Positions 266 through 22,108 of a DNA stretch of 22,108 bases are shown piece by piece. How positions within the stretch are numbered: position 1 is the first letter of the stretch; each line of letters starts with the position of its first letter. The notes under the pieces were generated by a model. That model saw only the letters and a list, made by a program, of their open reading frames with translations, ran no database searches and was not told the origin of the DNA. A program made the position numbers and the translations under genes. The stretch comes from a virus: the IMG/VR virus record IMGVR_UViG_3300042402_005139, positions 1 through 22,108 of that record; one strand, 5' to 3'.

Positions 266-273
266 AGAACTAT

Positions 274-302
274 ATAGTAGCATCAGAGTGAATAAAGGTC
301 AA
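274..302 (-). promoter_or_regulatory. Possible sigma-70-like promoter, leaderless layout
   Basis: On the minus strand TTGACC (297-302) lies 17 bases before TACTAT (274-279), and the ATG at 265 follows eight bases later. The -35 box matches consensus at five of six bases and the -10 box at four of six. The geometry repeats that of the stronger promoters at 3573-3601 and 17194-17222, and it falls in the only sizeable gap of this operon. Taken alone it would be weak evidence. Confidence 0.4.
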
Positions 303-307
303 TTGGT

Positions 308-571
308 TCATAAAAATCTTAATGCGAATTCGGTAGCTACTCGTTCATCTTTAAAAATATAAACAGTATACGCAAGCTCCAAAGTGGCATGCTCGCTCAT
401 ATCATATTGAATGTAATACAACCAATCATCACCATTTAACCAATGACGAATTTCACCTTCGCGGCCGCCGTATCTAACCGAACCTACGCCGGCATTGGTC
501 CTAAGCCATTCGTCAACTCGATCGGCTTGTGTTTCCATTTTTGAATATGGTATTCTTATTTCACTTGGCAT
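308..571 (-). CDS. Tiny phage protein with FALRFL tail (87 aa)
   Basis: No named family is recognised. The protein begins MPSEIRIPYSKMETQADRVD, has a helix with 'VDEWL' (an alpha segment also seen in the neighbouring protein as 'IIAWLEEN'), a Trp/Tyr-rich beta region (HWLNGDDWLYYIQY) and ends VYIFKDERVATEFALRFL. That tail matches the pattern seen in at least five other proteins of this operon: a beta strand, an acidic turn, Ala/Thr, then F-x-L-(R/K)-aromatic at the extreme C-terminus. It overlaps the next gene by 11 bases, which implies coupled translation. It is probably an early accessory protein, but no role can be assigned. Confidence 0.75.
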   Translation of the reverse strand: MPSEIRIPYSKMETQADRVDEWLRTNAGVGSVRYGGREGEIRHWLNGDDWLYYIQYDMSEHATLELAYTVYIFKDERVATEFALRFL

Positions 572-839
572 ACGAATATTTTAATGCAAACTTAACTGTC
601 ATTTTAGGGTCCATAATTTCCACGACCTTTTTAAGTTGCGGTCCTCTTATCTCAAGTTGCCATAAACTAGTCTTCCCAGCATATTTTGCTATTTGACTGG
701 TAGCACTACCGTAATAAGGAATAGGATCATTATTACTATTACGTTTATTGGCAAGTTCGATATTTTCTTCTAACCAAGCAATTATTTGTTTATGATCGCC
801 TTGAACATTTTCAAATCTGATACGTGTGTGCAAATTCAT
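561..839 (-). CDS. Tiny phage protein with FALKYSYAK tail (92 aa)
   Basis: The product (MNLHTRIRFENVQGDHKQII...) has a predicted strand, a helix containing AWLEEN, a basic and polar middle, and a C-terminal strand-helix ending VKFALKY followed by five extra residues. The N-terminal strand-helix layout resembles that of the adjacent 87-residue protein, so the two may be diverged duplicates. Its ATG overlaps the stop codon of the upstream oxygenase-like gene as TAATG, and its 3' end overlaps the next gene by 11 bases. Function unknown. Confidence 0.75.
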   Translation of the reverse strand: MNLHTRIRFENVQGDHKQIIAWLEENIELANKRNSNNDPIPYYGSATSQIAKYAGKTSLWQLEIRGPQLKKVVEIMDPKMTVKFALKYSYAK

Positions 840-1249
840 TATAGACTCATTGAAATACCCACCCTGGGGCCTAAAGGTGTTACATTATGATAAGTGTGTT
901 TTGGAACAATTATAAGATCACCTGGTTCAAGCAAGTACTCGGTATTATCATCAAAACTCCAAATAGTTTGTCCTTGTGCCTGCCAAAAGAACACATTGTC
1001 GCTGTCCTGATGTCTACCAAAGCTTCCACCGTGTACAGTTATATTCATATATAAGTGGGCCACTCTAAGTTGCAAATCACTTAATACATGTTGCACTTCG
1101 GATATAAGATGTGCTCGGTGTGATACAAAAAATCCAAAACATTTATGTTTGATAATGTCGTTATCAATTACAGATTGATTAAAATTACTTAAACAACTAT
1201 CCCATGTTGGAACGTTGGTATTATAGGATTTTTTAAATTCTATATTCAC
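839..1249 (-). CDS. Miniature JmjC/cupin 2-oxoglutarate oxygenase, ribosomal-oxygenase-like
   Basis: With a GTG start at 1249 the protein has 136 residues. Its second half matches the core of Fe(II)/2-oxoglutarate JmjC (Cupin_4) enzymes of the RoxA/YcfD and MINA53/NO66 type: a GGSFGRHQDSDNVFFWQAQG segment with the H-x-D metal pair at His80 and Asp82, then YLLEPGDLIIVPKHTYHNV with the third metal ligand at His121. YcfD hydroxylates an arginine of ribosomal protein uL16, so ribosomal or peptidyl hydroxylation is a reasonable guess. The usual dimerisation and winged-helix domains are absent, and the whole protein is about a third of YcfD length. I chose GTG because it overlaps the upstream stop as GTGA; a longer frame would start at 1300. 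Substrate and activity are inference. Confidence 0.72.
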   Translation of the reverse strand: MNIEFKKSYNTNVPTWDSCLSNFNQSVIDNDIIKHKCFGFFVSHRAHLISEVQHVLSDLQLRVAHLYMNITVHGGSFGRHQDSDNVFFWQAQGQTIWSFDDNTEYLLEPGDLIIVPKHTYHNVTPLGPRVGISMSL

Positions 1250-1443
1250 CCGCCCCACCGTAACAAAAAAATTGTCGCATCTTCCTGTCGCTTGAAACAA
1301 AAATACAATCCATTATTACGCCAGTTGCCGCTTTTAAAATTATTATAACAATACGCTTCTAATCGACATGTTTGTTCCCAAGCATCAGGCTCGGGCAACA
1401 TTCTAAACTGATGTGGCCAGTACTTTTTGTTATAGGTCTGCAT
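1246..1443 (-). CDS. Tiny phage protein with FLLRWGG tail (65 aa)
   Basis: This short protein begins MQTYNKKYWPHQFRMLPEPD. It is rich in aromatic residues, has Cys26 and Cys32 (TCRLEAYCY), a glycine turn (NWRNNGLYFCF) and ends KRQEDATIFLLRWGG. The end is the clearest example of the shared operon tail E-D-A-x-x-F-L-L-R-W-G. It overlaps the upstream gene by 14 bases and the downstream oxygenase by GTGA. Function unknown; the tail suggests a small alpha/beta fold in which the final aromatic strand completes the core. Confidence 0.75.
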   Translation of the reverse strand: MQTYNKKYWPHQFRMLPEPDAWEQTCRLEAYCYNNFKSGNWRNNGLYFCFKRQEDATIFLLRWGG

Positions 1444-1708
1444 AGTCAGCTGACAAGTTGATTAGGCATGCATGTTTTTCTTCTTGCCATCGAGTCAGCC
1501 AAGGAGTACGATCACATTCGACAATGTGTTGCAATACTGCATTACGGCTAGACGATTCAATGGCCTCACCCAAAAATAAACTCATAACTGGTTGGCTCCA
1601 ATGATATATTACGATACTCATTGAGTTGGTAGGATGAATATTCCATGCCCACTCGTGGGGATGATCTACTAGTGGAGGTATGTCTTCTAGGTGTTTAGGT
1701 TTTGTCAT
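1430..1708 (-). CDS. Hypothetical phage protein (92 aa)
   Basis: The product starts MTKPKHLEDIPPLVDHPHEW and carries several Trp and His residues (HEWAWNIHP, HWSQPV, TPWLTRW). Unlike its neighbours it does not end in the F-x-L-R-W tail; its end is INLSADYADL. A purine-rich AGAGG lies eight bases before the ATG, so this is one of the few genes here with a visible ribosome binding site. It overlaps both neighbours by 14 bases. I do not recognise the family. Confidence 0.7.
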   Translation of the reverse strand: MTKPKHLEDIPPLVDHPHEWAWNIHPTNSMSIVIYHWSQPVMSLFLGEAIESSSRNAVLQHIVECDRTPWLTRWQEEKHACLINLSADYADL

Positions 1709-2090
1709 GATAATCCTCTATTACAACCCAACCAAGTTGTTTAAGGTCCTGCCTAATTTCATCTGTGATGATACTTTCGGGCACATATTTTGCTGGATTA
1801 AATCCTTGTGCTTCGGCAGCAGCATAATCAATTTCTTTAGGATCACCATGTATGCCTGAACAATACCAGTCCATATAATCACCTTCGCAACGAATATCTG
1901 CAACAACACCGCCGGCATAACGCCAAGTACACGACCATGCTTCGTCTTTTAAGATAGGCATTACGTCTAATTTTTGAAAAGCATTATTACACAGTGCCGC
2001 ATAAAGATTTTGTGCATAAGAATCGCTGTCTCGTACTTTATGTACAAACCAGGCTGCATCTTTCATATCTCGTTCAAGATCAGCGTCCAT
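1695..2090 (-). CDS. Conserved hypothetical protein of T4-like marine phages (131 aa)
   Basis: The protein MDADLERDMKDAAWFVHKVR... contains YAALCNNAFQKLDVMPILKD, a Trp-rich core (EAWSCTWRYAGGVVADIR), GDYMDWYCSGI and a C-terminal TDEIRQDLKQLGWVVIED. From memory, the 'CSWRYAGGIIADMR...GDYIDWYCSG...DLKKLGW' pattern is widely conserved in cyanophage and pelagiphage T4-like genomes, always as a protein of unknown function. I chose the ATG at 2090 because it overlaps the upstream stop codon as TAATG; an in-frame ATG four codons earlier lies inside the previous gene. It is one of the strongest markers that this is a T4-like aquatic phage. Confidence 0.78.
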   Translation of the reverse strand: MDADLERDMKDAAWFVHKVRDSDSYAQNLYAALCNNAFQKLDVMPILKDEAWSCTWRYAGGVVADIRCEGDYMDWYCSGIHGDPKEIDYAAAEAQGFNPAKYVPESIITDEIRQDLKQLGWVVIEDYHDKT

Positions 2091-2329
2091 TATGCATCCC
2101 ATCTTAATAAAAAATTACTAGCATCGGATTCGTTTTCAATTACAACCACCATACCTTGTTGATGATCGCGACCACGAGGCAAGCACTGATCCATCCAGGC
2201 ATAAATTTCCTTTTCGTTGTCGGTCCACCATCTAAAGTCTGTTATTAGTATATAATGATAGGGCATCTCCTCGTCAAACGGACCGGTGGCAATAAATCTA
2301 CCTTTTTCAGCCGGAAACACTACACTCAC
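2090..2329 (-). CDS. Tiny phage protein with FLLRWDA tail (79 aa)
   Basis: I place the start at a GTG at 2329 that overlaps the upstream stop as GTGA; a longer frame would begin at a GTG inside the previous gene. The product begins MSVVFPAEKGRFIATGPFDE, has a Tyr/Trp-rich middle (YHYILITDFRWW), a helix with AWMDQCLP and the tail MVVVIENESDASNFLLRWDA. The helix A/E-W-(L/M)-x followed by a strand and the D-A-x-x-F-L-L-R-W ending is shared with its neighbours. Function unknown. Confidence 0.72.
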   Translation of the reverse strand: MSVVFPAEKGRFIATGPFDEEMPYHYILITDFRWWTDNEKEIYAWMDQCLPRGRDHQQGMVVVIENESDASNFLLRWDA

Positions 2330-2517
2330 GGTTTTTGATCCGATTCTTTGAGTGCTTTTACTGAACACAAGGCAACAAAGCCTTTGTTATCCCATTCTTT
2401 TCTAGCCGTCATACACTCTTGGTAATTGGGATATTCTTTTTTGTAAATAAACTTCATCTTGGGTGGTGGATCGCTCCAAAGTTGTACAACCAATATCCAA
2501 GGCATCAAATCTAACAT
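2326..2517 (-). CDS. Small protein with hydrophobic N-terminus (63 aa)
   Basis: The N-terminus MLDLMPWILVVQLW is hydrophobic and short, followed by DPPPKMKFIYKKEYPNYQE. It is compatible with a membrane anchor or a signal-like segment, but is too short to be sure. Two cysteines (residues 35 and 51) in a predicted helix-strand region (CMTARKEWDNKGFVALC) could pair if this part is exported. The in-frame ATG at residue 5 is an alternative start. It ends with GTGA overlap onto the next gene. From memory, similar short membrane-leader proteins occur in cyanophages. Function unknown. Confidence 0.62.
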   Translation of the reverse strand: MLDLMPWILVVQLWSDPPPKMKFIYKKEYPNYQECMTARKEWDNKGFVALCSVKALKESDQKP

Positions 2518-2518
2518 A

Positions 2519-2770
2519 TCAATTCCTTAATATTTCAAAAGTCCATTTAGGACTATTGGAGTCTACATCAAACCATAAGTGATTCTCTTCATCTAACCAA
2601 ACAGTAAAACCTTTATTGCTAAAATAATCCAATGCTATTTCTTTAAACACTAGATCCGTGTAATTGGGTGTAGTTTTTATTTGCATGTGAATATCATGCA
2701 GTTCATCGATATAATGTTTATATATAACATTACAAAACCATTCGGGTGCGTTTTTCATACGAAATTGCAT
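2519..2770 (-). CDS. Hypothetical phage protein (83 aa)
   Basis: The protein starts MQFRMKNAPEWFCNVIYKHY, with a helical first third, then ALDYFSNKGFTVWLDEENHLWFDVD, which looks like a helix followed by a beta-hairpin. The end (PKWTFEILRN) replaces the F-x-L-R-W tail of its neighbours but keeps an aromatic strand plus L-R. It may be a divergent member of the local family. It sits one base from each neighbour. Function unknown. Confidence 0.7.
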   Translation of the reverse strand: MQFRMKNAPEWFCNVIYKHYIDELHDIHMQIKTTPNYTDLVFKEIALDYFSNKGFTVWLDEENHLWFDVDSNSPKWTFEILRN

Positions 2771-2771
2771 A

Positions 2772-2993
2772 TCATCCCCACTTTAACAAAAACATTGTTA
2801 GTTCTTCTTGATTGCGAAATCGAAACATTTCAAAACTGGTTCTACGACCACAATTGTTTTGAGCACACCATAACTGAACAGGATCTAGATCATGATCTCT
2901 AAGACCGGTTTGTGTGATTGGTCCGTGATCGTAAGCTATCCTGGCATACAATGTAAGTTCCCGATTGGGATGCTTTTCCCACACTATTTTCAT
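2772..2993 (-). CDS. Tiny phage protein with FLLKWG tail (73 aa)
   Basis: The product MKIVWEKHPNRELTLYARIA... has an N-terminal strand, then LWCAQNNCGRRTSFEMFRF with two cysteines five residues apart, and ends RNQEELTMFLLKWG. The order (strand, W-C helix, C-G turn, F-x-F strand, acidic turn, F-L-L-K-W-G) is close to that of the proteins at 1246-1443 and 2090-2329, which supports a paralogous origin. It overlaps the upstream gene by four bases. Function unknown. Confidence 0.75.
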   Translation of the reverse strand: MKIVWEKHPNRELTLYARIAYDHGPITQTGLRDHDLDPVQLWCAQNNCGRRTSFEMFRFRNQEELTMFLLKWG

Positions 2994-3340
2994 GCGATTC
3001 GTACACGATTCTTTTCAGCACGAGCACTGTACAGTCGATGGCCGCGGCTTCTAAACAAATCTGCTGCTGTTTGTGGATCCGTCTCAAACATTTGCTCTAT
3101 ATCTGTTTTGTTGATGCTATGGTCACAATCTACGGCATACAGTTCGTAATGTCTCTGCTCATTGAACTTGGCCCTAAGGATCATGTTTTGTATCAACTGG
3201 TTAAGTGGATTACGGACCGTCTCTTGATTATTTAACACTCTGAATGTGTTGTCTCTATCCCACTGTTCATATTCAGTAATTGGAACCACACTCTCCAATC
3301 CTTCTTCGCACCAGTAAACAAGATATGCATTGGTAGTCAT
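2990..3340 (-). CDS. Conserved hypothetical protein of T4-like phages (116 aa)
   Basis: The protein begins MTTNAYLVYWCEEGLESVVP and continues with ITEYEQWDRDN, a central ILRAKFNEQRHYELYAVDCD, and a C-terminal MFETDPQTAADLFRSRGHRLYSAR. From memory, 'YLVYWCNEGLE...MLRARFN-QRHYEIY...MFE-DPQ-AAD-IR-RG' is a recurrent protein in marine T4-like genomes with no assigned function. It sits as the second gene of the promoter-proximal operon and overlaps both neighbours by four bases (ATGA type). No catalytic motif is visible. Confidence 0.78.
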   Translation of the reverse strand: MTTNAYLVYWCEEGLESVVPITEYEQWDRDNTFRVLNNQETVRNPLNQLIQNMILRAKFNEQRHYELYAVDCDHSINKTDIEQMFETDPQTAADLFRSRGHRLYSARAEKNRVRIA

Positions 3341-3567
3341 AGATATTTCAATCTAAAAAAAGTAGCAGCATCTTCGTCAACAAAGTCCAGTCGTGTATCG
3401 TGTACCCAATGACCATTGATTGGATTATGATCCTGGTGATGACGCACAGTAAATCCCAATGTTTCGCGAAGGCGCCAAGATATCATGGTCGTGATTTTAC
3501 CATAGTCCGAATCAATTTTTGGACGGATTTTATTCCATTCGCGATTGTCAAGAACTATAGTTGTCAT
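3337..3567 (-). CDS. First gene of small-gene operon, FRLKYL tail (76 aa)
   Basis: The protein MTTIVLDNREWNKIRPKIDS... has a helix, ISWRLRETLGF, a His-rich turn (RHHQDHNP) and the tail TRLDFVDEDAATFFRLKYL, a variant of the shared D-A-x-x-F-x-L-(R/K)-aromatic ending. Its ATG lies only five bases after a perfect -10 box, so its transcript should start at or within one or two bases of the start codon and have no leader. No Shine-Dalgarno sequence is possible there. It is probably expressed immediately on infection by host RNA polymerase; its role is unknown. Confidence 0.75.
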   Translation of the reverse strand: MTTIVLDNREWNKIRPKIDSDYGKITTMISWRLRETLGFTVRHHQDHNPINGHWVHDTRLDFVDEDAATFFRLKYL

Positions 3568-3572
3568 ACCGC

Positions 3573-3601
3573 ATTATAGCAGCGTATTTAGATTATGTCA
3601 A
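3573..3601 (-). promoter_or_regulatory. Perfect-consensus sigma-70 promoter for the small-gene operon
   Basis: Reading the minus strand, TTGACA (3596-3601) is followed by exactly 17 bases and then TATAAT (3573-3578). Both hexamers match the bacterial housekeeping consensus completely. The -35 box overlaps the stop codon of the upstream gene (TGA at 3598-3600), and the -10 box lies five bases before the ATG at 3567, so initiation six to eight bases downstream of the -10 falls on the start codon. This is what a strong phage early promoter read by unmodified host polymerase should look like. Confidence 0.88.
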
Positions 3602-9975: not shown

Positions 9976-11127
9976 ATGTTCTCCGTCGATAATTTTTATA
10001 ATGTATTAGCCAGTAATTTACTTAATCCGTTAAAGATGCATTATAGCTATTTTTATCCGTTTGGCACTTTTAATTTACAGTCCATAAGTCTAAACTCTCG
10101 TACCAATTATATTGATGGTTCGTTGGGCGTACTTTTCTGGGATCAAGAGCCATTCAATGCAAATCTTTTCAATAAAGTAATATGCAACTCTACAGAAATA
10201 TTTCATCCTCAAAACTTAATTATAGCAAATAGCGATACCTGCATCGAGGCAGGTAAAATTTCAAACTACAACTGGAATTATTTTTTCCACGGATTTGCCG
10301 CATTAGATTGGTATAGAGATCTTTACTACTTGAACGAAAAAAGTAACAATTTTGATAAAGTATTTATCACGGTTAATAGACTAATTACACAAGAAAGATC
10401 GTACAGGTTGTCACTTGTTGCTAAATTAATAAAAAATAATTTACAAGAAAACGGATTAATTTCTTGTAAATTACAAGATACTATAAAAGGTTCTTGGAAA
10501 AACGAATTATTAGATCCAGAAAGTAAACTTACAAAAAAACAAAAAATTGAAATATTTGAAACATTTTCCAAAATAGATAATGATTTGATTTTAGATAATT
10601 CAGATGTACCAGGTGCAAGTAGTGCTATAATCAATCACGACCAGCGTGTGCTTTTCCGAAAAGCTTTCTGCCACATTGTTACTGAAACAATGTTTTATCC
10701 AGATAAATTACATTTGACCGAAAAAATTTTTAGACCGATAGTTTTTCAACGACCATTTATTTTAGCTGGTTGCAAGCATAATTTAAAATATTTTAAAAAA
10801 TATGGATTCGAAACTTTTAGTAATTGGTGGGATGAAAGTTATGATGAAGTTGAGAATCACGAGACTCGGCTAGAAATGGTTGTATCAATTGTTAAAAAAT
10901 TAAATCAATATAATTTAAATGATTTACAAGACATGTATAACGAAATGCTGCCTGTGTTAGAACATAACTATGAACATTTTTTTGGAAATTTTAAAAAAAT
11001 AATAGTTGAGGAAATGATTGATAACTTTAAATTAAATTTAGATAAGTGGAACGACACCAATAAAATTAAATATAACTATACAAACATATTGAATTTTAAC
11101 GAAATAAAACAACGATTAAGTAACTAA
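9976..11127 (+). CDS. Glycosyltransferase-like protein, plus-strand (383 aa)
   Basis: One of only two plus-strand genes. I propose the ATG at 9976, which forms the palindrome CATATG with the ATG of the divergent dehydrogenase; an ATG at 10036 is possible, and neither has a strong ribosome binding site. The frame is open upstream to 9871 but that part is antisense to the dehydrogenase. The C-terminal core KLHLTEKIFRPIVFQRPFIL followed by AGCKHNLKYFKKYGFETFSN matches the plus-strand gene at 20266-21243 and resembles the donor-site T-E-K region of GT-B glycosyltransferases of the fucosyltransferase (GT10) type. The gene is very AT-rich. It is convergent with the peptidase gene, sharing overlapping stop codons. 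Substrate unknown. Confidence 0.7.
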   Translation: MFSVDNFYNVLASNLLNPLKMHYSYFYPFGTFNLQSISLNSRTNYIDGSLGVLFWDQEPFNANLFNKVICNSTEIFHPQNLIIANSDTCIEAGKISNYNWNYFFHGFAALDWYRDLYYLNEKSNNFDKVFITVNRLITQERSYRLSLVAKLIKNNLQENGLISCKLQDTIKGSWKNELLDPESKLTKKQKIEIFETFSKIDNDLILDNSDVPGASSAIINHDQRVLFRKAFCHIVTETMFYPDKLHLTEKIFRPIVFQRPFILAGCKHNLKYFKKYGFETFSNWWDESYDEVENHETRLEMVVSIVKKLNQYNLNDLQDMYNEMLPVLEHNYEHFFGNFKKIIVEEMIDNFKLNLDKWNDTNKIKYNYTNILNFNEIKQRLSN

Positions 11128-11879
11128 GATTTGTCTATATGCGAAATTATTAGTTGTTCCATATCTCTTATTCTTGTTCTTGTGGTAGTGCTGTTTAATA
11201 CCACAAAAAGTTTTTTCTTTCCATCTATCATCACACTCATTACCAAGCAGCCGCCGCTGGCACGTACATAACCAGTTTTGCTAACTACTACATTATATTT
11301 TGACACAAGAGGATTGGTATTACTGTATCGCCACTTCAAGATCTTTTTCTTCTTAGATCTCAATATTTCACCCACGCTTTGGTTGCTGGCATGAACTATT
11401 TCTGGATACCGTTCGGCTGCGAGTAGTAATTTGATTAAATCTCTAGGTGTACTTACATTTCCATTGTCAAGCCCGCTGCTGTCGGCAAATTTTGTTTCGT
11501 ACATACCTAATACTTGTGCTTTGTGATTCATATCATCTATACAAGTTTTGTAACCTCTATGATAATATTCGCACAACATTTTAGCGGCCTGATTGTCTGA
11601 TTTTATGATTGCTAAATTTATTAGTTGACCTCTAGTAACCGGTAATCCTCTTAATTTTTTGTCTAGTGTGGTTGTTAGATTTGGATGAGCATCAAGAACA
11701 ACCATTGCTGTCATTAATTTTGTAATACTGGCAATAGGTTGTTGTATTTCAATATTTTCTGATTCGATGACATTACCATCGCTGTCGGCTATTAACCAAG
11801 ATTTAGCTAATATATTTGTAGAGGAAACAGGATAACTTACAATCACAAGGATTGTCCAAAGTAATAAATTTTTTATCAT
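11124..11879 (-). CDS. Secreted D-alanyl-D-alanine peptidase, S11/PBP7-like (251 aa)
   Basis: All three penicillin-recognising motifs of S11 peptidases are present: Ser51-Ile-Thr-Lys54 (IASITKLMTAM), Ser94-Asp-Asn96 (IIKSDNQAAK) and Lys201-Thr-Gly203 (VSKTGYVRASGG). The N-terminus MIKNLLLWTILVIVSYPVSS is a hydrophobic signal peptide, so the enzyme acts in the periplasm on peptidoglycan stem peptides or cross-bridges. The length and lack of a C-terminal amphipathic anchor fit the PBP7 (D,D-endopeptidase) group. It is coupled by ATGA to a 53-residue membrane protein, suggesting a cell-wall or lysis role. The gene ends in stop-codon overlap with the convergent glycosyltransferase gene. Confidence 0.88.
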   Translation of the reverse strand: MIKNLLLWTILVIVSYPVSSTNILAKSWLIADSDGNVIESENIEIQQPIASITKLMTAMVVLDAHPNLTTTLDKKLRGLPVTRGQLINLAIIKSDNQAAKMLCEYYHRGYKTCIDDMNHKAQVLGMYETKFADSSGLDNGNVSTPRDLIKLLLAAERYPEIVHASNQSVGEILRSKKKKILKWRYSNTNPLVSKYNVVVSKTGYVRASGGCLVMSVMIDGKKKLFVVLNSTTTRTRIRDMEQLIISHIDKS

Positions 11880-13236: not shown

Positions 13237-15255
13237 TTAAAAGCCTATTCGCAACATTATGCTGGCTGCTGTGCTTGCTATACTGTCTTTTTTAAGATGT
13301 GTAGCTCCTACAACGACAGCAACTTTATCTGTCAGCTGTTTACCAACACCCATACGCGATACTAAAACACTATCAGAATTTTGACTTGCTTCGGCATAAA
13401 AATTAAAAGAATTTACTTGACGATCAAATCTTAAGCCATAGTGTGTGGTATTGGTTGTAGTATTCACTGCGTCATAGCTCATTGCAGTCAATACACTTCC
13501 AGCTTCCGTTACTGCGTCCCTACGGTTATTTTCTACTCGAGCACCCACAAATGGTCTTAGTCCACGAAAATCTGGAGTATACAGTCTGGCTGTAAACCAG
13601 TAATCATCACCATCTGTGCGAGAGTTGTTTGAATAACCAAGTGCAGGTAAACTGTGTGTGGAATCTACGGCATTACGTGAGTACCCTAACTGCGAACTTA
13701 GGATCCAATTTTTAACGATCGTGGTACTGTTCAGAGCAATCATATCTTTATAAAGATTACCAGAGGAATCGTTGCCGCTCATGCTTGAACTTGAACGACT
13801 GACATTTAGGCCAACAACCCAATTGTTTCTAACCAGTTTATCTAAACCAAAACCATAACGACTAGTTGAAATCGTATAACCATCGTTAGCATATTCTCCA
13901 GCTCGTTCTCCCAAGGTGTAGAAACTAATGCTTCTGCCTGCATCTACATTTCCACGGAACACAAGATCACCATCAACAATCTTGTGACGATTTAACACAT
14001 CGTTGGAATTCAGTAGATTAGCGAACGAGTTAGTTTGTGCTAACACTGTATATTGATCAACTCTGGTTGTGTAATCTTGATTGGCGCTTGTTGTCGCTAC
14101 CTGATTAAAAGTTGTAGTGGTAGTCACAACTTGATCTGTAGTTGAGGTAGTGGTCACCGGAGTGCCGTTGGTGGTAGTAGTAGATCCATCACTATAAGTA
14201 GTTACCGTAGTCGGTGTTGTGACTGTGGTCGTTGTTACCGGTGTAGTATCAGTGACTACTCTGGTGACAGGTGTAGTAGCAACCACAGTTGTATTTCTTG
14301 TGATTGTGAGAGTCTTATTGTTTGCAGAGCCTCTGGTGTCAGTCACTGTTTCTACCACTGTGGTTGATCCTGGTGTGTCCACAACACTGGTTGTTGTAGT
14401 ACCATTGGAAGAACTGCTTGTTACAGTAGGTGTACCTGGTGCAGTTGATACCACCGTAAGAGATCCACTTCCTGATCCGCTGCTGCTGCCGCTGAAGGAT
14501 GTAACCGACAATGTACCGGTGTATCCACCTGGTGTTGCTGCTGTAGTACCACCATTGGCATCATAGCCGCCACCGCTCATGTTTGCTGTGACGCCGGCTG
14601 CTGTGGTTGTACACATTACAGATCCACTGGTTGTACCGCAAGCACCCCAGCTGGAAGAACTGGTCCAACCTTGTGCAAATACACCCGATGAATCAAGACC
14701 AAACTCTGGATTGTACAATATGTTGCTGCCTGCAGAACCACCTGTTGGCGTGAATGTCACTGTTGGTACACGCCATTGTGGACCATAGTTACCTGCCCAC
14801 CATGATGTATCTGTACCAATCATGATAACTTTCACATGAGTGACACTGGCACAACTGCCTGCAGTACCACAATCAGTAGAAGTCAATGATAGTGTACTCC
14901 AGGCCTCGCTGTTGTCACCAGGACCAGAACTCCAGGCATCCATTTGTAGTAGATTACCGGTGGCGTAACTGGTAGTACTAGAACCCAATAAGGTTCCGCC
15001 ATTATAGTATTCTAATTTTAATTGACCAGTGTCGTGTTGCAATGGTCTTCCGCCGCCTGCATGTGCCTCAACGGTAAATGTTAATGTACCTCCATTTTGC
15101 ATGTTTGAATCAAAAACTACTATTTGACTAATAGTACTGTTGGCAGTATAAGACATGTTTGCACTATTGTAATCGGTGCCTGACTCGAACGCATTTACTA
15201 CTGAATTGAAACACACGGCGGCCACGATCGCAATGATCTTGCCCCAAGATTTCAT
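13237..15255 (-). CDS. Phage-encoded autotransporter-like outer-membrane protein (672 aa)
   Basis: Residues 1-22 form a signal peptide (MKSWGKIIAIVAAVCFNSVV, cleavage likely after VNA). Residues ~23-255 are a beta-rich Gly/Ser/Thr passenger with two Cys pairs (DCGTAGSC, CGTTSGSVMC). Residues ~265-410 are a low-complexity Thr/Val/Ser region (TTTTVTTPTTVTTYSDGSTT). From ~residue 430 to the end the sequence alternates as amphipathic strands (YGFGLDKLVRNNWVVGLNVS, FRGLRPFVGARVENN) and stops with MLRIGF, a C-terminal phenylalanine as in BAM-inserted beta-barrels. This is the plan of a type V autotransporter or outer-membrane adhesin. In a phage it could alter the host surface, for example to block other phages. 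AAGGAG precedes the ATG. Function is inference. Confidence 0.8.
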   Translation of the reverse strand: MKSWGKIIAIVAAVCFNSVVNAFESGTDYNSANMSYTANSTISQIVVFDSNMQNGGTLTFTVEAHAGGGRPLQHDTGQLKLEYYNGGTLLGSSTTSYATGNLLQMDAWSSGPGDNSEAWSTLSLTSTDCGTAGSCASVTHVKVIMIGTDTSWWAGNYGPQWRVPTVTFTPTGGSAGSNILYNPEFGLDSSGVFAQGWTSSSSWGACGTTSGSVMCTTTAAGVTANMSGGGYDANGGTTAATPGGYTGTLSVTSFSGSSSGSGSGSLTVVSTAPGTPTVTSSSSNGTTTTSVVDTPGSTTVVETVTDTRGSANNKTLTITRNTTVVATTPVTRVVTDTTPVTTTTVTTPTTVTTYSDGSTTTTNGTPVTTTSTTDQVVTTTTTFNQVATTSANQDYTTRVDQYTVLAQTNSFANLLNSNDVLNRHKIVDGDLVFRGNVDAGRSISFYTLGERAGEYANDGYTISTSRYGFGLDKLVRNNWVVGLNVSRSSSSMSGNDSSGNLYKDMIALNSTTIVKNWILSSQLGYSRNAVDSTHSLPALGYSNNSRTDGDDYWFTARLYTPDFRGLRPFVGARVENNRRDAVTEAGSVLTAMSYDAVNTTTNTTHYGLRFDRQVNSFNFYAEASQNSDSVLVSRMGVGKQLTDKVAVVVGATHLKKDSIASTAASIMLRIGF

Positions 15256-16160: not shown

Positions 16161-16714
16161 TATTTTGCACTTTCATATGTACGTTTTTTAATACCAACAT
16201 CTTTATAAATTTGTTGTACTGCTCTAGCTTGATAATAACAATCAATCAATGCGTTGTGAGCACCGTGTCTATCCTTCTTTCTGGGATCACCGTGTACGCT
16301 AAACAGGGTACGACTGTCTCTAATTTGCCAAAATTGCCATGGCGTAGGGCGACCAACTTGCCTATAAAGATCTTCTAAAATAACAATGTCAAAAGCAGGA
16401 CCTTGACACCAGATATTATCTACACCAACTAGAAATCTATTAAGTTGATCTAGCATTGCATTGATACTGACCCGACCGTCTGTGCCCAATGCTTCTTCTC
16501 TGACTTCTTCGGGTTGAGTACCCCACCATGCAACAGTTTCATCCTGCACATGTCTATCTAAGGCCAATTGTTCATCAACATCGGGACGAATATACAATCC
16601 AGATTCTGTATCAACATCCTCATCCCATGGACTGAATTTAACTGCGCCAAGAGTAAGTATCACTGACCAAGGTCTAGTGCTTAGTGTTTCAATATCGAGC
16701 ATTACATCCATCAT
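16160..16714 (-). CDS. dexA: DexA-like 3'-5' DEDDh exonuclease (184 aa)
   Basis: The DEDDh exonuclease residues are readable: Asp7 and Glu9 (VMLDIETLS), Asp109 (CQGPAFDIVIL), His153 and Asp158 (RHGAHNALIDC). The phrases FWQIRDSRTL and CQGPAFD resemble T4 exonuclease A (DexA), which degrades single-stranded DNA 3' to 5'. It is somewhat shorter than T4 DexA (about 227 residues). In T4-like phages it helps process or recycle DNA. It overlaps the nucleotidyltransferase gene upstream by ATGA and the small gene downstream by TAATG. Confidence 0.87.
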   Translation of the reverse strand: MMDVMLDIETLSTRPWSVILTLGAVKFSPWDEDVDTESGLYIRPDVDEQLALDRHVQDETVAWWGTQPEEVREEALGTDGRVSINAMLDQLNRFLVGVDNIWCQGPAFDIVILEDLYRQVGRPTPWQFWQIRDSRTLFSVHGDPRKKDRHGAHNALIDCYYQARAVQQIYKDVGIKKRTYESAK

Positions 16715-17187
16715 TGATCCTTGAGTATTTTTTCTGCCTCGGATGCCGCTACTCGGCGCCGCAGACTGCTTGAACTGAACGAGTGATCACGGCTGTTGAA
16801 TATAAGTTCTATACCTTTTTTAGCACAGGCAGCATCTCCGGTAAATTCCTTACCTTTATATTCAACACCTAGTATACGCACATCAATTGGTAATGTCAAT
16901 AATATATCTACCAAATCTTGCTCGGTTTGATATACAACAACTTCATCAACGTAACGGCATGCTGCCAGTTGAATTTGTCTTTCCACAATACTTTGGACAG
17001 GTCGATTTTTTGTATCTGGACGGTCAATTGTTGGGTCCGTCTGGAGCCCGGCGATAAGATAATCGCAGTGATTTTTAGCCTCTGCCAACATCGCAACATG
17101 TCCGGCGTGAAGCATATCAAAAGTCGAAAAAGTAATTCCAATCTTAAGTCCTTTGTCCTTAAGTTCTCTAATTTTATTGAATATCAT
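16711..17187 (-). CDS. Cytidylyltransferase-like nucleotidyltransferase, TagD/HldE-like (158 aa)
   Basis: The signature T-F-S-T-F-D-M-L-H-A-G-H (His27 and His30, the HxGH nucleotide-binding motif) and the C-terminal FSSSSLRRRVA (the I-S-S-T-x-I-R-x-R-type motif) identify a class I nucleotidyltransferase of the glycerol-3-phosphate cytidylyltransferase or ADP-heptose synthase type. It activates a phosphorylated polyol or sugar with CTP or ATP. The ATG is six bases after a -10-like box, so the transcript from the promoter at 17194-17222 should be leaderless. Extra C-terminal residues form a helix. In a phage it could serve glycan or NAD-type metabolism; the substrate is not known. Confidence 0.85.
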   Translation of the reverse strand: MIFNKIRELKDKGLKIGITFSTFDMLHAGHVAMLAEAKNHCDYLIAGLQTDPTIDRPDTKNRPVQSIVERQIQLAACRYVDEVVVYQTEQDLVDILLTLPIDVRILGVEYKGKEFTGDAACAKKGIELIFNSRDHSFSSSSLRRRVAASEAEKILKDQ

Positions 17188-17193
17188 TGATAT

Positions 17194-17222
17194 ATTTTAG
17201 TCGGTTAATACGCAATTGTCAA
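17194..17222 (-). promoter_or_regulatory. Sigma-70 promoter with leaderless layout
   Basis: On the minus strand TTGACA (17217-17222) is followed by exactly 17 bases and TAAAAT (17194-17199), one mismatch from consensus. The ATG at 17187 comes six bases after the -10 box, so initiation should fall on or beside it. The -10 box contains the stop codon (TAA, 17197-17199) of the upstream gene. This copies the design at 3573-3601. Confidence 0.78.
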
Positions 17223-17409
17223 CCATGTCGCAAAGAACTTGTTTAATAAATTCCTTGCTCATGCATTCGTTATCACAATAGATAACATCATCTTTGATAT
17301 AAAATTTGAATAATCCAAATCCTATGTTTGTTGATGTCCATTCTACTGTAAACTCATTGGACAAGTTTGTAGAGTTTGGTATTTTGTCTAGTAAAGATTC
17401 GACAGTCAT
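17197..17409 (-). CDS. Hypothetical phage protein (70 aa)
   Basis: The protein begins MTVESLLDKIPNSTNLSNEF, then has a beta-rich middle (TVEWTSTNIGFGLFKFYIKD) and a C-terminal helix with three cysteines (YCDNECMSKEFIKQVLCDMV, plus a final Cys). The start overlaps the clpS stop as ATGA. No family is recognised. The downstream end of the gene doubles as the next promoter. The cysteine set (four in about 25 residues) could bind metal, but the spacing is not a standard zinc finger. Confidence 0.68.
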   Translation of the reverse strand: MTVESLLDKIPNSTNLSNEFTVEWTSTNIGFGLFKFYIKDDVIYCDNECMSKEFIKQVLCDMVDNCVLTD

Positions 17410-17714
17410 TGTGCTGCTTCTAATTTAACGTTTAGCGGGAATCCATTGTTACGTGCTAGTAGTGTAACTTCTATACCTTTTTGTTCAGCCATTTCATATG
17501 GTAGTGTTGCTACCACAGCCGATCCTTCTTCGTGAATCTTTATTGTTACATTCGTAGCATCTTCTTCGGCATAGTTGAATACAATCTTTAAACTTTCTAC
17601 TACAAATTCCATAGTTGTCTGTTCGTCGTTTATATAGATTACGTTGTACAAACTAGGTTCTGGAATATTTGTCTTGGGAGCAATCTTAGGGCGTACAATA
17701 GTTTCAGTAGTCAT
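17406..17714 (-). CDS. clpS: ClpS-like adaptor of the Clp protease (102 aa)
   Basis: After a 22-residue tail (MTTETIVRPKIAPKTNIPEP) the domain reads YNVIYINDEQTTMEFVVESL, then NVTIKIHEEGSAVVATLPYE, MAEQKGIEV and NGFPLNVKLEAAQ. This aligns with ClpS: Y-x-V-x-L-x-N-D-D-x-T-P-M-E-F-V, V-H-x-x-G-x-A-V, and P-L-x-(C/V)-x-x-E. The N-D pair and the M-E-F-V helix form the N-degron pocket. ClpS delivers N-end-rule substrates to ClpAP; a phage copy could redirect host proteolysis or act with the chaperones upstream. Note D-E rather than D-D after the Asn, and V instead of C near the end. It follows hsp20 after a 9-bp hairpin. Confidence 0.87.
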   Translation of the reverse strand: MTTETIVRPKIAPKTNIPEPSLYNVIYINDEQTTMEFVVESLKIVFNYAEEDATNVTIKIHEEGSAVVATLPYEMAEQKGIEVTLLARNNGFPLNVKLEAAQ

Positions 17715-17730
17715 AATATCTGTTTGAAGA

Positions 17731-17752
17731 AGCAGGGGAGGTCTCCCCTGCT
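17731..17752 (-). promoter_or_regulatory. Perfect stem-loop between hsp20 and clpS
   Basis: AGCAGGGGA, GGTC, TCCCCTGCT pairs over nine bases with a four-base loop. There is no U-tract after it on the minus strand (TCTTCAAAC), so it is not a textbook terminator; it may be a partial attenuator, an RNase processing site or a 3' protective hairpin for hsp20 mRNA. The clpS start codon follows about 18 bases later. Confidence 0.75.
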
Positions 17753-17766
17753 GTTGTTACATTATA

Positions 17767-18204
17767 TTACTTAGCGAAGGTAATTGCAATCTTCTTAGGT
17801 TGTTTTTCCTCGGGAATAACTTGTTCTAAGTTAATTGACAAAATACCGTCTCTAACTGTAGCGCCACGCACTTCAATACTTTCGCCTAGCGGAAAAGTTT
17901 TGTTGAAGTTGCGTGAGCTAATACCTCTGTGTAGGTATTGTCTTTCTTCGTCTTTCTTGGCTTTATCGCCGCGAATTATTAGAAGATTTTCTTTTAATTC
18001 AACGTCAAGTTCGTTTTCTGCAAAACCTGCCACAGCCACTTCGATTACATATTTGTTTTCTTCTACTTGAATTACATTGTGTGGTGGATAATTATCGCCT
18101 TTGCTGTTTGCAAAAGTTCTATTGAGTTCACCAATAATGCGGTCAAACCCAATAGCGTGACGGTGAATAGTTGGTAAATCAAAAGTTGTGATATAGGTTG
18201 TCAT
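17767..18204 (-). CDS. hsp20: Small heat-shock protein, IbpA/Hsp20 class A (145 aa)
   Basis: The N-terminus (HRHAIGFDRIIGELNRTF) matches the start of E. coli IbpA, and YPPHNVIQVEENKYVIEVAV followed by AGFAENELDVELKENLLIIRG is the alpha-crystallin domain (about residues 38-130). The dimer-loop region YLHRGISSRNFNKTFPLGES and the C-terminal KKIAI (I-x-I anchor) are present. It holds unfolded protein as an ATP-independent chaperone for DnaK to refold. T4-like cyanophages also carry Hsp20. Its leader shares with dnaK the motif TAACTTGCTTA, four bases, AAGGAG. It lies 76 bases after dnaK. Confidence 0.93.
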   Translation of the reverse strand: MTTYITTFDLPTIHRHAIGFDRIIGELNRTFANSKGDNYPPHNVIQVEENKYVIEVAVAGFAENELDVELKENLLIIRGDKAKKDEERQYLHRGISSRNFNKTFPLGESIEVRGATVRDGILSINLEQVIPEEKQPKKIAITFAK

Positions 18205-18210
18205 AGTCGT

Positions 18211-18231
18211 CTCCTTTCATTAAGCAAGTTA
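18211..18231 (-). promoter_or_regulatory. hsp20 leader motif shared with dnaK
   Basis: On the minus strand TAACTTGCTTA (18221-18231), four bases, then AAGGAG (18211-18216) and the ATG after six bases. The same 11-mer and the same four-base gap to the Shine-Dalgarno sequence occur before dnaK at 20170-20190. Confidence 0.7.
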
Positions 18232-18243
18232 TGACATATATGA

Positions 18244-18270
18244 GGGTAGGCCCCAACCGGGCACCTACCC
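18244..18270 (-). promoter_or_regulatory. Stem-loop between dnaK and hsp20
   Basis: GGGTAGG (18244-18250) pairs with CCTACCC (18264-18270); an inner CCC/GGG pairing around AACC extends it beyond a small internal loop. It starts 10 bases after the dnaK stop. No U-tract follows on the minus strand, so it is more likely an attenuator, processing or stabilising hairpin than a full terminator. Confidence 0.65.
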
Positions 18271-18280
18271 CGCATATTCT

Positions 18281-20164
18281 TTACTTCTTTTCTGTAAATT
18301 CAGCATCAACTACAGTGTCATCGGCTTTGGGCGTTGCAGACTCCTCTGTAGTCGGTTGCTTTACTTCGTTAATTGCATTGGCGGCAACAAACAATTCTGA
18401 CAATTTGGTTGTAATTGCTTCTTTGTCTGTGCCTGTTACTGTTTCTTCTAGTTCATGTATTTTATCGTTAATTTGCTTCGTCTGATCCTCTGACAGTTTG
18501 CCCTCAACTTCTTTTAGATCAGTGCGAACCTTGTGGATTACAGAATCCGCTTGGTTACGTACTTCAATTAATTCGCGTTGCTTTTGGTCAGCGTCGGCAT
18601 TGGCTTCGGCATCGCGAATCATCTCCTCAATCTGCTCTTTGCTAAGACCAGAATCGGACTTGATAGTAATCTTGTTTTCTTTGCCAGTCTTTTTATCCCG
18701 AGCACTTACTTTAAGAATACCGTTTGCATCTACATCAAGCGTGACTTCAATTTGTGGCATGCCTCTTGGTGCAGGGTCAATACCTTCTAAATTAAATTCA
18801 CCTAGTAGTTTATTATATTGCACAAGTTCGCGTTCACCTTGATAGACTTTGATAGTAACTGCAGGCTGATTATCCTCAGCTGTGCTGAACACCTGACTAT
18901 TTTTAGTTGGTATTGTAGTGTTCTTTTGTATTAGTTTTGTCATCACTCCGCCCATGGTTTCGATACCTAGGCTTAGTGGGGTCACATCAAGTAGTAGAAC
19001 GTCTTTACGGTCGCCACCTAGAACAGCACCTTGTACTGCTGCTCCTACCGCTACTGCTTCATCCGGATTGACATCACGACGTGGTGCCTTACCAAACAAT
19101 TGTTCAACTGCTTCTTGTACCTTAGGCATGCGTGTCTGGCCACCAACCAAGATAACTTCGTCAATATCAGCAGCAGTTACGCCTGCGTCCTTCATGGCAA
19201 TCCGGCAAGGATCAATCGAGCGTTGAATAAGATCTTCTACTAGACTTTCAAATTTGGCTCTAGTAATTTTGATATTTAGATGTTTAGGTCCTGTAGCATC
19301 AGCGGTGATATAAGGTAAATTAACATCTGTTTGTGTGTTATTGGATAGTTCGATCTTGGTACGTTCGGCAGCTTCTTTTAGTCGCTGTAGTGCCATGACA
19401 TCTTTAGATAGATCAACACCGGATTCCTTTTTGAATTCAGTGATCAGATAGTCCATTATTCTTTGGTCAAAGTCCTCACCTCCAAGGAATGTATCCCCAT
19501 TGGTACTAAGTACTTCGAATTGTTTATCACCATCCACAACAGCGATGTCGATAATAGATATATCAAAGGTACCACCACCAAGATCATAAACAGCAATTTT
19601 ACGATCCGTTTTTTCATTTTTGTCTACTCCATAAGCCAGGGCCGCTGCGGTCGGCTCATTGATAATACGCAGGACTTCTAGTCCAGCAATTTGCCCTGCG
19701 TCCTTAGTAGCCTGGCGCTGACTGTCATTAAAATATGCTGGGACAGTAATAACTGCCTGAGTTACTTCATGACCAAGATAGTCTTCGGCAGTTTTTTTCA
19801 TTTTGCGAAGAACTTCTGCACTAATTTGTGGAGGTGCCAATTCTTTGTCATTCGCCCGAACCCATGCATCACCATTTGTGGCTTCCATAATAGTATATGG
19901 CATTAGGTCAATATCTTTTTGAACTGCTTGTTCTTTGAATTTACGACCAATTAGTCGTTTAGCAGCATAGACGGTATTTCGTGGATTGGTTACAGCTTGA
20001 CGTTTAGCACTAGCGCCAACAAGAATTTCGTCAGAAGCATATGCTACAATGCTAGGTGTAGTTCTAGCACCTTCTGAATTTTCAATTACTTTTGGGATTC
20101 CGTTTTCGACCACTGCTACGCAGCTATTGGTGGTACCTAGATCGATACCGATGATTGTACTCAT
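18281..20164 (-). CDS. dnaK: Hsp70 chaperone DnaK (627 aa)
   Basis: Full-length DnaK. The nucleotide-binding domain has [14 protein letters not shown], the [16 protein letters not shown] and [13 protein letters not shown] segments, [12 protein letters not shown] and [13 protein letters not shown]; the linker is [13 protein letters not shown] near residue 390; the substrate domain has [20 protein letters not shown] and ends in a helical lid and the tail [10 protein letters not shown]. All motifs for ATP use are intact. It prevents aggregation and folds proteins with DnaJ and GrpE; neither is encoded here, so host partners are implied. The sequence is close, from memory, to betaproteobacterial DnaK, suggesting host acquisition. 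A stem-loop and the TAACTTGCTTA motif precede AAGGAG and the ATG. Confidence 0.97.
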
Positions 20165-20265: not shown

Positions 20266-21243
20266 ATGAATCATGAAGAATGGATGGTGAGAAAAGCCAT
20301 TAACAACCAAAATTCCAATCTATTTTTCCTTCATGACTGTTTGCAGGAAGAACAAAACTTAGATTACCCAAAAGATAAACTGTTAATAATTCAGCACTCA
20401 CATGGTAACAATCACACTCAAGAACAATATTCACTGTATTCAAAAGTGTTGGGGTTAAAGTTTCTATATGCAACATCTAACTATAGCTACTTCAGAAGTA
20501 ACCACGATAATATAGTTTATTATCCTTACTATTTTTTTGATTTTCTTTATGTACCCGGCCTGACCAAGTACGATATCAAATCTAAACGTCCATACAAATT
20601 GCAATGCTTGAATCTCAATCCATGGGTACATCGTACTATCAATTATTTAGAAATGAGTAAAAAATCATGGTTCTCTGAATGTAAATTTAGTTTTAATTGG
20701 ACTCTTAAATTGGACAATGTTGATACTACAGTCATAGGAGCAAACACGCTGCATGATCTACCCGAACCAGAATCAGACGAAATAAAAAGGCGTTTAGCTA
20801 ATAACACTATTCCTATATTTTTAGAGGATTGGAAGCATACGAATAATCCTATTACCAGTAATCAATGTTTTGTGCATAGAGATTGTTACATTGACTATGT
20901 TACAGAAAATTCAGTCAATCAAGAATTTATAACAGAGAAAACCTGGAAACCTATTTTTTCAGGTCAACTATTTTTAATATTAGGTAGTAAGGGTATAATT
21001 GTGTATCTTAGAAAAATTGGCATTGATACTTTTGATGATATCATTGATCACAGTTACGATCAAGTAGAGGATTTGCGTACAAAAATTTCAATGATTCATC
21101 AACAATTAGATCGTTTAATGACCAGTGATTTGGATACGATTTGGGATAACACGTATGAACGCAGGAAAAAGAATTTGGAATTAGTATATGATCCAGAATT
21201 CCATAATTTTTTACTAGAAGAATTTGTTAAAAAAGTTTCTTAG
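20266..21243 (+). CDS. Glycosyltransferase-like protein, plus-strand (325 aa)
   Basis: The protein (MNHEEWMVRKAINNQNSNLF...) has an N-terminal alpha/beta region (KLLIIQHSHGNN, IVYYPYYFFDFLYVPG) and a C-terminal core NQEFITEKTWKPIFSGQLFL followed by ILGSKGIIVYLRKIGIDTFD, which aligns with the plus-strand gene at 9976-11127 (T-E-K-x-x-x-P-I, then L/F-G-F/I-x-T-F). The T-E-K-x-(W/F)-(K/R)-P-I motif resembles the donor-binding region of GT10-like or related GT-B enzymes. It has a GAGGA ribosome binding site, is AT-rich, and is convergent with bS21, overlapping it by 17 bases. It probably glycosylates DNA, virion or host glycan; substrate unknown. Confidence 0.7.
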   Translation: MNHEEWMVRKAINNQNSNLFFLHDCLQEEQNLDYPKDKLLIIQHSHGNNHTQEQYSLYSKVLGLKFLYATSNYSYFRSNHDNIVYYPYYFFDFLYVPGLTKYDIKSKRPYKLQCLNLNPWVHRTINYLEMSKKSWFSECKFSFNWTLKLDNVDTTVIGANTLHDLPEPESDEIKRRLANNTIPIFLEDWKHTNNPITSNQCFVHRDCYIDYVTENSVNQEFITEKTWKPIFSGQLFLILGSKGIIVYLRKIGIDTFDDIIDHSYDQVEDLRTKISMIHQQLDRLMTSDLDTIWDNTYERRKKNLELVYDPEFHNFLLEEFVKKVS

Positions 21244-21472
21244 GCAACTGTTCGGATTCTAGCTTTTTGGTCCACCGACGTCGGGCAGCACTTTTGGCTT
21301 GCTTGCGTCGAGTAGTAGGTTTTACGTAGTGTTCACGTTCACGTAGGTTTTGTAGTAGTCCTGATTCTGCTACTTTCTTTTTAAACTTACGTAGTGCTTT
21401 TTCAACTTGATCGTTAGTTACTATAACCAGATTGCCTGGTGCTAGTGGTTTAGGTTTCCATTCATCTCTCAT
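21227..21472 (-). CDS. rpsU: Ribosomal protein bS21 homologue (81 aa)
   Basis: Residues ~16-70 match bS21: VIVTNDQVEKALRKFKKKVA, then ESGLLQNLREREHYVKPTTR and RKQAKSAARRRWTKKL, with the typical A-L-R-x-F-K-(R/K), L-R-x-R-E-x-Y-x-K-P-T and basic tail. bS21 lies near the anti-Shine-Dalgarno end of 16S rRNA and affects initiation. Phage copies are known in large aquatic phages and are thought to favour phage mRNAs. It has an N-terminal extension of about 14 residues (MRDEWKPKPLAPGN) and a longer C-terminus than the usual ~70 residues. No Shine-Dalgarno sequence precedes its ATG, which is notable for a protein linked to that interaction. Confidence 0.9.
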   Translation of the reverse strand: MRDEWKPKPLAPGNLVIVTNDQVEKALRKFKKKVAESGLLQNLREREHYVKPTTRRKQAKSAARRRWTKKLESEQLPKKLF

Positions 21473-21476
21473 ATTG

Positions 21477-21854
21477 TTATTTAAGTTTAGAGTTATAATC
21501 TATAAAAAAATCAACAGGACTTTTTATTGAGTTCTTATTCTTTAGGAATTTTTTCTTCCCGTAGTAGTATGCATTTGGTAGTTCTGCTAGTATATCTTTG
21601 ATAGTACTAAAAGTGTTTTTCTTAGTATTAATTATAAAAGCGTCAGCACGATTCCTGGCATTAGCAAACCAATCCTCATCACCCATTTCGCTGTGATATA
21701 GATATATGTTAAAATAATTGTCAGAATTTTTTAAAAATAGTCCTAAATTTTGTATATCATTTGACTCTGCATCAATTATTAAAACAGTAAATTTGTTTTC
21801 GTCAACAAAATCTGGTGGGGTAATTATATTCGAATAATCAAGTTGTTCTTCCAT
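21477..21854 (-). CDS. Conserved small phage protein (125 aa), flavodoxin/receiver-like fold
   Basis: The N-terminal part MEEQLDYSNIITPPDFVDEN leads into FTVLIIDAESNDIQNLGLFL, then NIYLYHSEMGDEDWFANARN and RADAFIINT, an alternating strand-helix pattern with an acidic residue after strand 1, like a receiver or TIR-like alpha/beta fold. The C-terminal part (AYYYGKKKFLKNKNSIKSPV) is basic. From memory, similar proteins are found in cyanophage T4 relatives near head or tail genes, without function. It overlaps the preceding gene by 17 bases and bS21 follows four bases later. Confidence 0.7.
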   Translation of the reverse strand: MEEQLDYSNIITPPDFVDENKFTVLIIDAESNDIQNLGLFLKNSDNYFNIYLYHSEMGDEDWFANARNRADAFIINTKKNTFSTIKDILAELPNAYYYGKKKFLKNKNSIKSPVDFFIDYNSKLK

Positions 21855-22108
21855 TTTTTTCCTGTAAGTATTGTGCCATTTGTTCTTGTTCTACTTCATT
21901 AAGATCTTCAGGGCTATATTCACCTGTGCGTAATTTATCTATCAAGTACTCAATGTATTGATCATTATAAGCATAGGTATCAGTGCGAGTTTTATCTGCT
22001 TCAATCCAGCGATTTCCGTTGTACTTGAAAAGCTTAGTAGGAAGATAATCTGTTCTCAAAAACAAATCGCCTTTTCCTGGATTTGCAGGAAATTCAATAC
22101 CAAAACTT
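21838..22108 (-). CDS. C-terminal part of a probable virion protein, cut by right edge
   Basis: The frame is open through the right edge of the window: FGIEFPANPGKGDLFLRTDY, then LPTKLFKYNGNRWIEADKTR and YAYNDQYIEYLIDKLRTGEY, ending LQEKNGRTT. A TTG at 22065 could be mistaken for a start, but the coding pattern clearly continues upstream. 'P-x-x-P-x-x-G-D-x-F-L-R-T-D-x-x-P-x-(K/R)-L-F-(K/R)-(Y/F)-N-G-x-(R/K)-W' is a phrase I associate with the C-terminal parts of structural proteins in marine T4-like phages. The product cannot be named from this fragment. Confidence 0.65.
   Translation of the reverse strand, partial: SFGIEFPANPGKGDLFLRTDYLPTKLFKYNGNRWIEADKTRTDTYAYNDQYIEYLIDKLRTGEYSPEDLNEVEQEQMAQYLQEKNGRTT

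Follow-up and report, generated by a model that had tools for sequence, protein, structure and literature searches.

A phage-encoded bS21 gene with a T4-type late-promoter-like box, in place of a Shine–Dalgarno sequence, at its start codon

The bS21 gene and its surroundings

The window, that is, the whole stretch of DNA analysed here, is a 22,108-base IMG/VR virus fragment whose minus strand carries a phage bS21 gene at 21227–21472 (81 aa, ATG start, stop included). The Pfam profile PF01165 matches this ORF over profile positions 2–53 of 55 (E = 6.9e-17; 61.3 bits against a cut-off of 27), and the ORF also matches phrog_21469 and bS21 chains of the PDB, among which the Flavobacterium johnsoniae chain is a far weaker match than the best ones. 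Apart from the ATG at 21472, the 5′ part of the ORF has no ATG, GTG or TTG, and 10 codons further upstream the frame is closed by a TAG, so the N-terminal extension described below is part of the bS21 reading frame. The nearest relative (L002) shares 85% protein identity, with a dN of 0.10 and a dS of 0.92 (dN/dS of approximately 0.1), and by this measure the gene is under strong purifying selection. An AlphaFold2 model places helices at residues 23–37, 39–47 and 52–74 (mean pLDDT 76; pTM 0.36, the protein being small and elongated), and this model, together with the invariant core in the alignment of relatives, corresponds to the helical bS21 fold with its conserved basic core. The profile match, the single possible start and the purifying selection all bear out the identity given in the initial annotation.

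The bacterial proteins nearest to the window bS21, in a search that used short peptide patterns, are all from Burkholderiaceae and align from residue 14 or 20 (among 80 of 240 matches listed), and the ending QLPKKL is common to both. These two features suggest a betaproteobacterial host for the phage, which is taken to be a large phage of freshwater-type members of that class; on the same sequence comparisons, its protein belongs to the host (Burkholderiales-like) type of bS21. Its core, A-L/I-R-K/R-F, starts at residue 26, and at residue 15 in E. coli and in Burkholderiaceae. The N-terminal extension noted initially is thus real, but it amounts to about 11 residues and not 14 (MRDEWKPKPLA, codons at 21440–21472, minus strand). 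It is a low-confidence coil in the model, with a pLDDT of approximately 57–68 over residues 1–20 and helices that begin at residue 23; among relatives its sequence changes and its length varies up to about 14 residues, the extension being absent at L024 and L034. The longer basic tail that had also been described is an error, because the part that follows the core start (56 residues) equals that of the 70-aa Burkholderiaceae proteins (56) and is one residue under that of E. coli (57). The C-terminus reads QLPKKLF in the window and QLPKKLH in Burkholderiaceae, and the net charge of the last 20 residues is +5, versus +7 for the corresponding 21 residues of E. coli.

The bS21 gene comes third in a structural operon. 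The first is a virion-protein-like gene, of which the window holds the C-terminal part (21838–22107, minus strand) and cuts off the start; its product has approximately 505–600 aa in relatives. The second is an ORF of 125 aa (21477–21854, minus strand), conserved before bS21 in near relatives, which has an AGGA Shine–Dalgarno (SD) sequence at 21860–21863 (minus strand), gives no Pfam or PHROG match, and stops 4 nt short of the ATG of bS21. Downstream of bS21 lie proteostasis genes (17406–20164, minus strand): DnaK (18281–20164), Hsp20 (17767–18204) and ClpS (17406–17714). GroEL- and GroES-like ORFs are found between DnaK and bS21 in a related contig (G002, 97109–99095; L060 and neighbours), Hsp20 or Clp genes are close to bS21 in phages HTVC008M and SCTP-2, and in Vibrio phage 2.275.O (L348) genes annotated as IF-3, RpsU and L7/L12- or ClpS-like adjoin.

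Strong SDs precede the DnaK and Hsp20 genes of the window, as well as a gene at 13237–15255 (minus strand) whose product, of 672 aa, combines an autotransporter beta-barrel domain (PF03797) with Ser/Thr/Gly-rich repeats and is unusual in a phage. The Hsp20 and DnaK genes (minus strand) have in common a leader motif, AACTTGCTTA, before a strong AAGGAG; it is seen again in relatives, possibly as a regulatory element common to these genes. Two further observations concern the minus strand: a D-Ala-D-Ala carboxypeptidase family protein (PF00768) is encoded at 11124–11879 and is also present in relatives, and a run of about 13 small overlapping look-alike ORFs at 95–3567, many ending in F-L-L-R/K-W or similar, is possibly a diverged, tandem-expanded gene family.

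Start signals of bS21 and of the phage group

As is expected of a leaderless mRNA, no SD precedes the bS21 start: an anti-SD match of at least 4 nt was not found at −18 to −5 of the ATG. The sequence upstream reads AACTCTAAACTTAAATAACAAT-ATG and includes the hexamer TAAATA at −11 to −6 (21478–21483, minus strand), followed by the 5-nt spacer ACAAT (21473–21477, minus strand). The late box of T4 is TATAAATA, located at −13 to −6 of the transcription start and variable in its first letter, and the variant CTAAATA occurs in Aeh1 (PMC1524935); in S-PM2 the late box is NATAAATA (PMC2984593). The window hexamer is of this T4 type, in which (N)ATAAATA or CTAAATA replaces the −10 element, although the complete box, CTTAAATA at −13 to −6, deviates from ATAAATA in its first letters (CT) and is therefore less typical; in near relatives the same site reads GATAAATA-ATTCT-ATG and similar. 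Given the position of TAAATA and the T4 rule, transcription is predicted to start on the A of the bS21 ATG, which would give a leaderless message, and a message that begins at the ATG would account for the absence of an SD.

Among 36 distinct related bS21 loci, TAAATA stands just before the ATG in 21, mostly at a spacing of 5 nt, with no SD in 20 of them; an SD without the box is found at 13 loci, and neither at two. The opposition between box and SD gives a Fisher p of 6e-7, which overstates the significance since the sequences are related. In the poorly resolved bS21 tree, box and SD interchange in clusters, with at least two changes forced and five counted by parsimony. At two loci (L012, L015) a pair of ATGs follows the box, one after 1 nt and the other after 4 nt.

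The wider group set comprised 15 related contigs and the window (1,810 genes in 875 families), with ORFs and start codons taken from a simple heuristic ORF picker and not from a trained gene caller; the related contigs are not independent, so the p-values are too small. The initial annotation had stated that many genes of the window lack an SD, and indeed 27 of the 38 picked ORFs have no match of at least 4 nt. The statement is nevertheless overstated, since 25 of the 38 overlap or abut the preceding gene and SDs are strongly used across the group, where 44% of genes have such a match, versus 22% in shuffled sequence, with a sharp peak at −12 to −9. A general absence of SDs is rejected on these figures and on the strong SDs of the DnaK, Hsp20 and autotransporter genes; likewise, the genome without SD use that goes with a Bacteroidota-type, anti-SD-sequestering bS21 is not what is found here.

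Across the 16 contigs, TAAATA occurs at −13 to −10 of 101 of the 1,810 genes, with 11.5 expected, so that about one gene in twenty seems to have its putative promoter set on the ATG. The enrichment holds for the 880 genes that are separated from the preceding gene of the same strand by 25 nt or more (65 boxes against 9.5 expected, in 37 families); the spacer is 5 nt, the modal value, in 16 of the 37 families and 4–7 nt in all. The clearest family is that of the virion-protein-like gene, whose start in relatives reads CTATAAATA-N5/6-ATG and in which 13 of 15 members carry the box. Other orders of these six letters are for the most part enriched little or not at all; ATAATA is raised, and the enrichment of ATAAAT and AAATAT comes from overlapping shifts of the TAAATA box. 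Start-like codons that follow the box are ATG in 92% of cases, versus 58% overall. A second TAAATA peak is found at −34 to −20, with an SD between box and start, and for this reason a promoter fits better than a translation signal. SD frequency is 3% in the leaderless-spaced class, 61% in genes with the box at −34 to −20 and 45% in other genes. Upstream of the box there is no −35 signal (score 2.89, versus 2.93 shuffled; 57 families), and sigma70 was rejected as its reader on that account. The SD-less start noted initially for bS21 is thus real; the near clade has it in common, and the class of apparently leaderless genes into which it falls has strong statistical backing.

The same procedure found no TAAATA at −13 to −10 in T4, Aeh1, KVP40 (200 kb), S-PM2, Cr30 or phiM12, and three in P-SSM2 (200 kb), with 2.0 expected; a leadered peak is seen in T4, Aeh1 and P-SSM2, and weakly in S-PM2. 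None of these seven phages gave a bS21 match, which is present in HTVC008M, Mosig, Melnitz, SCTP-2 and Vibrio 2.275.O. In the pelagiphage HTVC008M (L126), TAAATA stands at leaderless spacing before 14 genes (1.2 expected), and in Mosig before six (2.0 expected), while the class is not significant in Melnitz (three; 2.0 expected), SCTP-2 (five; 3.2 expected) and Vibrio 2.275.O (none). Among the phages of this panel, only those that carry bS21, or their close kin, show the leaderless late class at a significant level; a general rule that phages with bS21 have leaderless genes failed on Vibrio 2.275.O, SCTP-2 and Melnitz. The bS21 gene of HTVC008M, a culturable phage, is itself without a box at leaderless spacing.

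The late sigma factor gp55 (phrog_234, phrog_12791) is encoded in a 338-kb relative (G011), in which bS21 lies approximately 159 kb away; a search of the window and its nearest relatives, all of them fragments that cover part of a genome, did not find it. Independent loci fetched by gp55 repeated the box peak (38 against 6.3 expected), and one contig fetched in this way (G027, 354 kb) also encodes a bS21, 66% identical to that of the window. A tblastn search of the first contigs with T4 gp23, gp20, gp21, gp45 and gp55 gave no match, and only gp44 and uvsW matched weakly; a gp45 profile gave no match, and neither did its control. PHROG scans assigned the phage to no named genus.

A second leaderless class appears to be sigma70-like. 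Among promoters of the form TTGAC-N16-18-TATAAT in the group, with one mismatch allowed at the third base of the −10 box, this box lies at −13 to −11 of an ATG in 23 of 65 cases. Two are found on the minus strand of the window: TTGACA-17-TATAAT at 3568–3601, before the gene at 3337–3567 (ATG at 3567), and TTGACA with a TAAAAT −10 box at 17188–17222, before the gene at 16711–17187 (ATG at 17187). Both end 5–6 nt before the ATG and are conserved in relatives, and such putative promoters placed against the ATG supply a sequence basis for the leaderless cases that had been noted earlier.

Proposed origin and use of the bS21 message

The reading that we consider probable is that bS21 is expressed late from a T4-type promoter set on its ATG, on a message that is leaderless and hence SD-less. 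The TAAATA box, 5 nt before the start, would make the message begin on the ATG or within a nucleotide or two of it, and a leaderless start would allow bS21 synthesis without SD pairing and therefore even on ribosomes short of bS21. Some bS21 may also come from read-through mRNA of the structural operon, by coupling to the ORF that ends 4 nt upstream. The substitution of the box for an SD across relatives, the group-wide enrichment, its repetition at gp55-bearing loci, the missing −35 signal and the joint presence of gp55 and bS21 in G011 and G027 speak for this reading; the less typical box of the window, the failure to find gp55 in the window and the nearest fragments, and the 4-nt gap speak against it. 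The product would most likely be exchanged into host 30S subunits late in infection; it is known that the bS21 of HTVC008M enters E. coli ribosomes (PMC6375957).

A plainer account, which falls somewhat short of an even chance, is that the phage protein tops up or replaces host bS21 with no choice among messages, and that the gene structure sets timing only. In length and in the QLPKKL ending, the core and tail are like those of Burkholderiaceae bS21, purifying selection is strong, and late timing is consistent with the late bS21 expression reported in other phages (Chen et al., 2022; PMC9723584). Against this, a severe impairment of in vitro E. coli translation by the bS21 of HTVC008M (PMC6375957) suggests that phage versions are perhaps not neutral, although a mismatch with the host is possible in that experiment.

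It is rather unlikely that coupling is the only route, with ribosomes that finish the SD-bearing upstream ORF reinitiating at the bS21 ATG and TAAATA being a mere lysine codon plus stop. The 4-nt gap between stop and start is found in the window and most near relatives, the upstream ORF bears its AGGA, most SD-less genes of the window abut or overlap another gene, and the box does overlap the end of the upstream ORF (..AAA TAA) in the window and most relatives. Only 2.0% of the 1,810 group genes, however, end in TAAATAR, and yet nearly all bS21 genes of the near clade have the box; a chance lysine-stop is thus inadequate as its source and was rejected. The box also survives a stop in another register (AAATAAATATTTGACTATG, at L031) and a different gene directly upstream of bS21 (the structural gene itself, at G006/L014), and the same box precedes genes with long intergenic gaps. 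Coupling and a late promoter are not mutually exclusive, and both routes may operate.

A more elaborate proposal, which we regard as improbable, is that of a second translation channel, in which early and late genes, bS21 included, have promoters fused to the ATG and leaderless messages translated on ribosomes without host bS21. Leaderless bS21 would be favoured on such ribosomes, forming a feedback, and phage bS21 would then restore the translation of phage SD messages.

The initial annotation had linked the extended protein to the SD-less genes, by supposing that ribosomes are retargeted by it to phage messages that are SD-less or leaderless; a preference of phage bS21 for phage mRNAs is an idea already published (PMC9723584). 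The ability of the HTVC008M protein to enter ribosomes and the distribution of the leaderless late class in the panel are in its favour, but the link fails on the 36 related loci, where the extension accompanies SD-bearing and SD-less genes alike: both extension and SD are present at L018, L025, L038–L040 and L045–L050, and L024 has the box with neither SD nor extension. In these sequences, then, the extension is not tied to the SD-less start. SDs are, moreover, widely used in the group, and three phages with bS21 do not have the class at a significant level. SD-led mRNAs depend on bS21 in E. coli, where leaderless mRNA is selected by 61S ribosomes that lack bS1, uS2 and bS21 (PMC4929434); a preference of bS21 for leaderless messages would therefore be the reverse of what is known. 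Retargeting is for these reasons highly doubtful.

A+T-rich, unstructured stretches upstream of a gene can support SD-less initiation. That the stretch before bS21 is such an enhancer (unstructured and bS1-binding) and not a promoter is very improbable, the window sequence being merely compatible with it, since the exact order TAAATA is enriched and most permutations of its letters are not, and the box also peaks at −34 to −20 with an SD in between.

Comparison with known systems

Phage-encoded bS21 is already known, and in the phages described by Mizuno et al. (2019; PMC6375957) and Chen et al. (2022; PMC9723584) it is, as here, small and located in a late or structural neighbourhood with Hsp20 and Clp nearby; replacement of host bS21 has been proposed for them, as it is here. 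Unlike those phages, of which Chen's infect Bacteroidetes, the window has a betaproteobacterial-type bS21 with an N-terminal extension and a putative promoter on the ATG. Why so many phages carry bS21 is a question that the divergent start signal found here addresses in a testable way: a leaderless late message would encode a protein that E. coli needs for SD-led initiation.

T4 late promoters (TATAAATA, gp55; PMC1524935, PMC2984593) are likewise a single box with no −35 element, with NATAAATA and CTAAATA as variants, and leadered late genes with an SD, as in T4, are also present in the window's group. The difference lies in the leaderless spacing of the box, which is found in many genes here and in HTVC008M, unlike T4, Aeh1, KVP40, S-PM2, Cr30 and phiM12. 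A limited search of the open-access literature found no earlier report of T4-type late genes that are leaderless or have the promoter on the ATG. TAAATA-N5-ATG or TATAAT-N5/6-ATG would offer a simple rule by which leaderless phage genes could be predicted from environmental genomes.

The 61S ribosomes of E. coli (PMC4929434) offer a parallel in that a message starting with AUG is translated by ribosomes without bS21, but that system is induced by kasugamycin and is not a class of phage gene expression. In F. johnsoniae, ribosomes that lack bS21 prefer the SD-bearing rpsU message, which leads to autoregulation (McNutt et al., 2023; PMC9976891). The likeness is that of a bS21 start signal that differs from the rest of the genome and is possibly better read by ribosomes lacking bS21; by analogy, a leaderless bS21 start could serve autoregulation of this kind by the opposite sign, and the feedback of a second translation channel, if true, would be its mirror image in the same sense. 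The difference is that the rpsU of F. johnsoniae is an SD exception in an SD-less genome, whereas the bS21 of the window would be leaderless in a genome that uses SDs.
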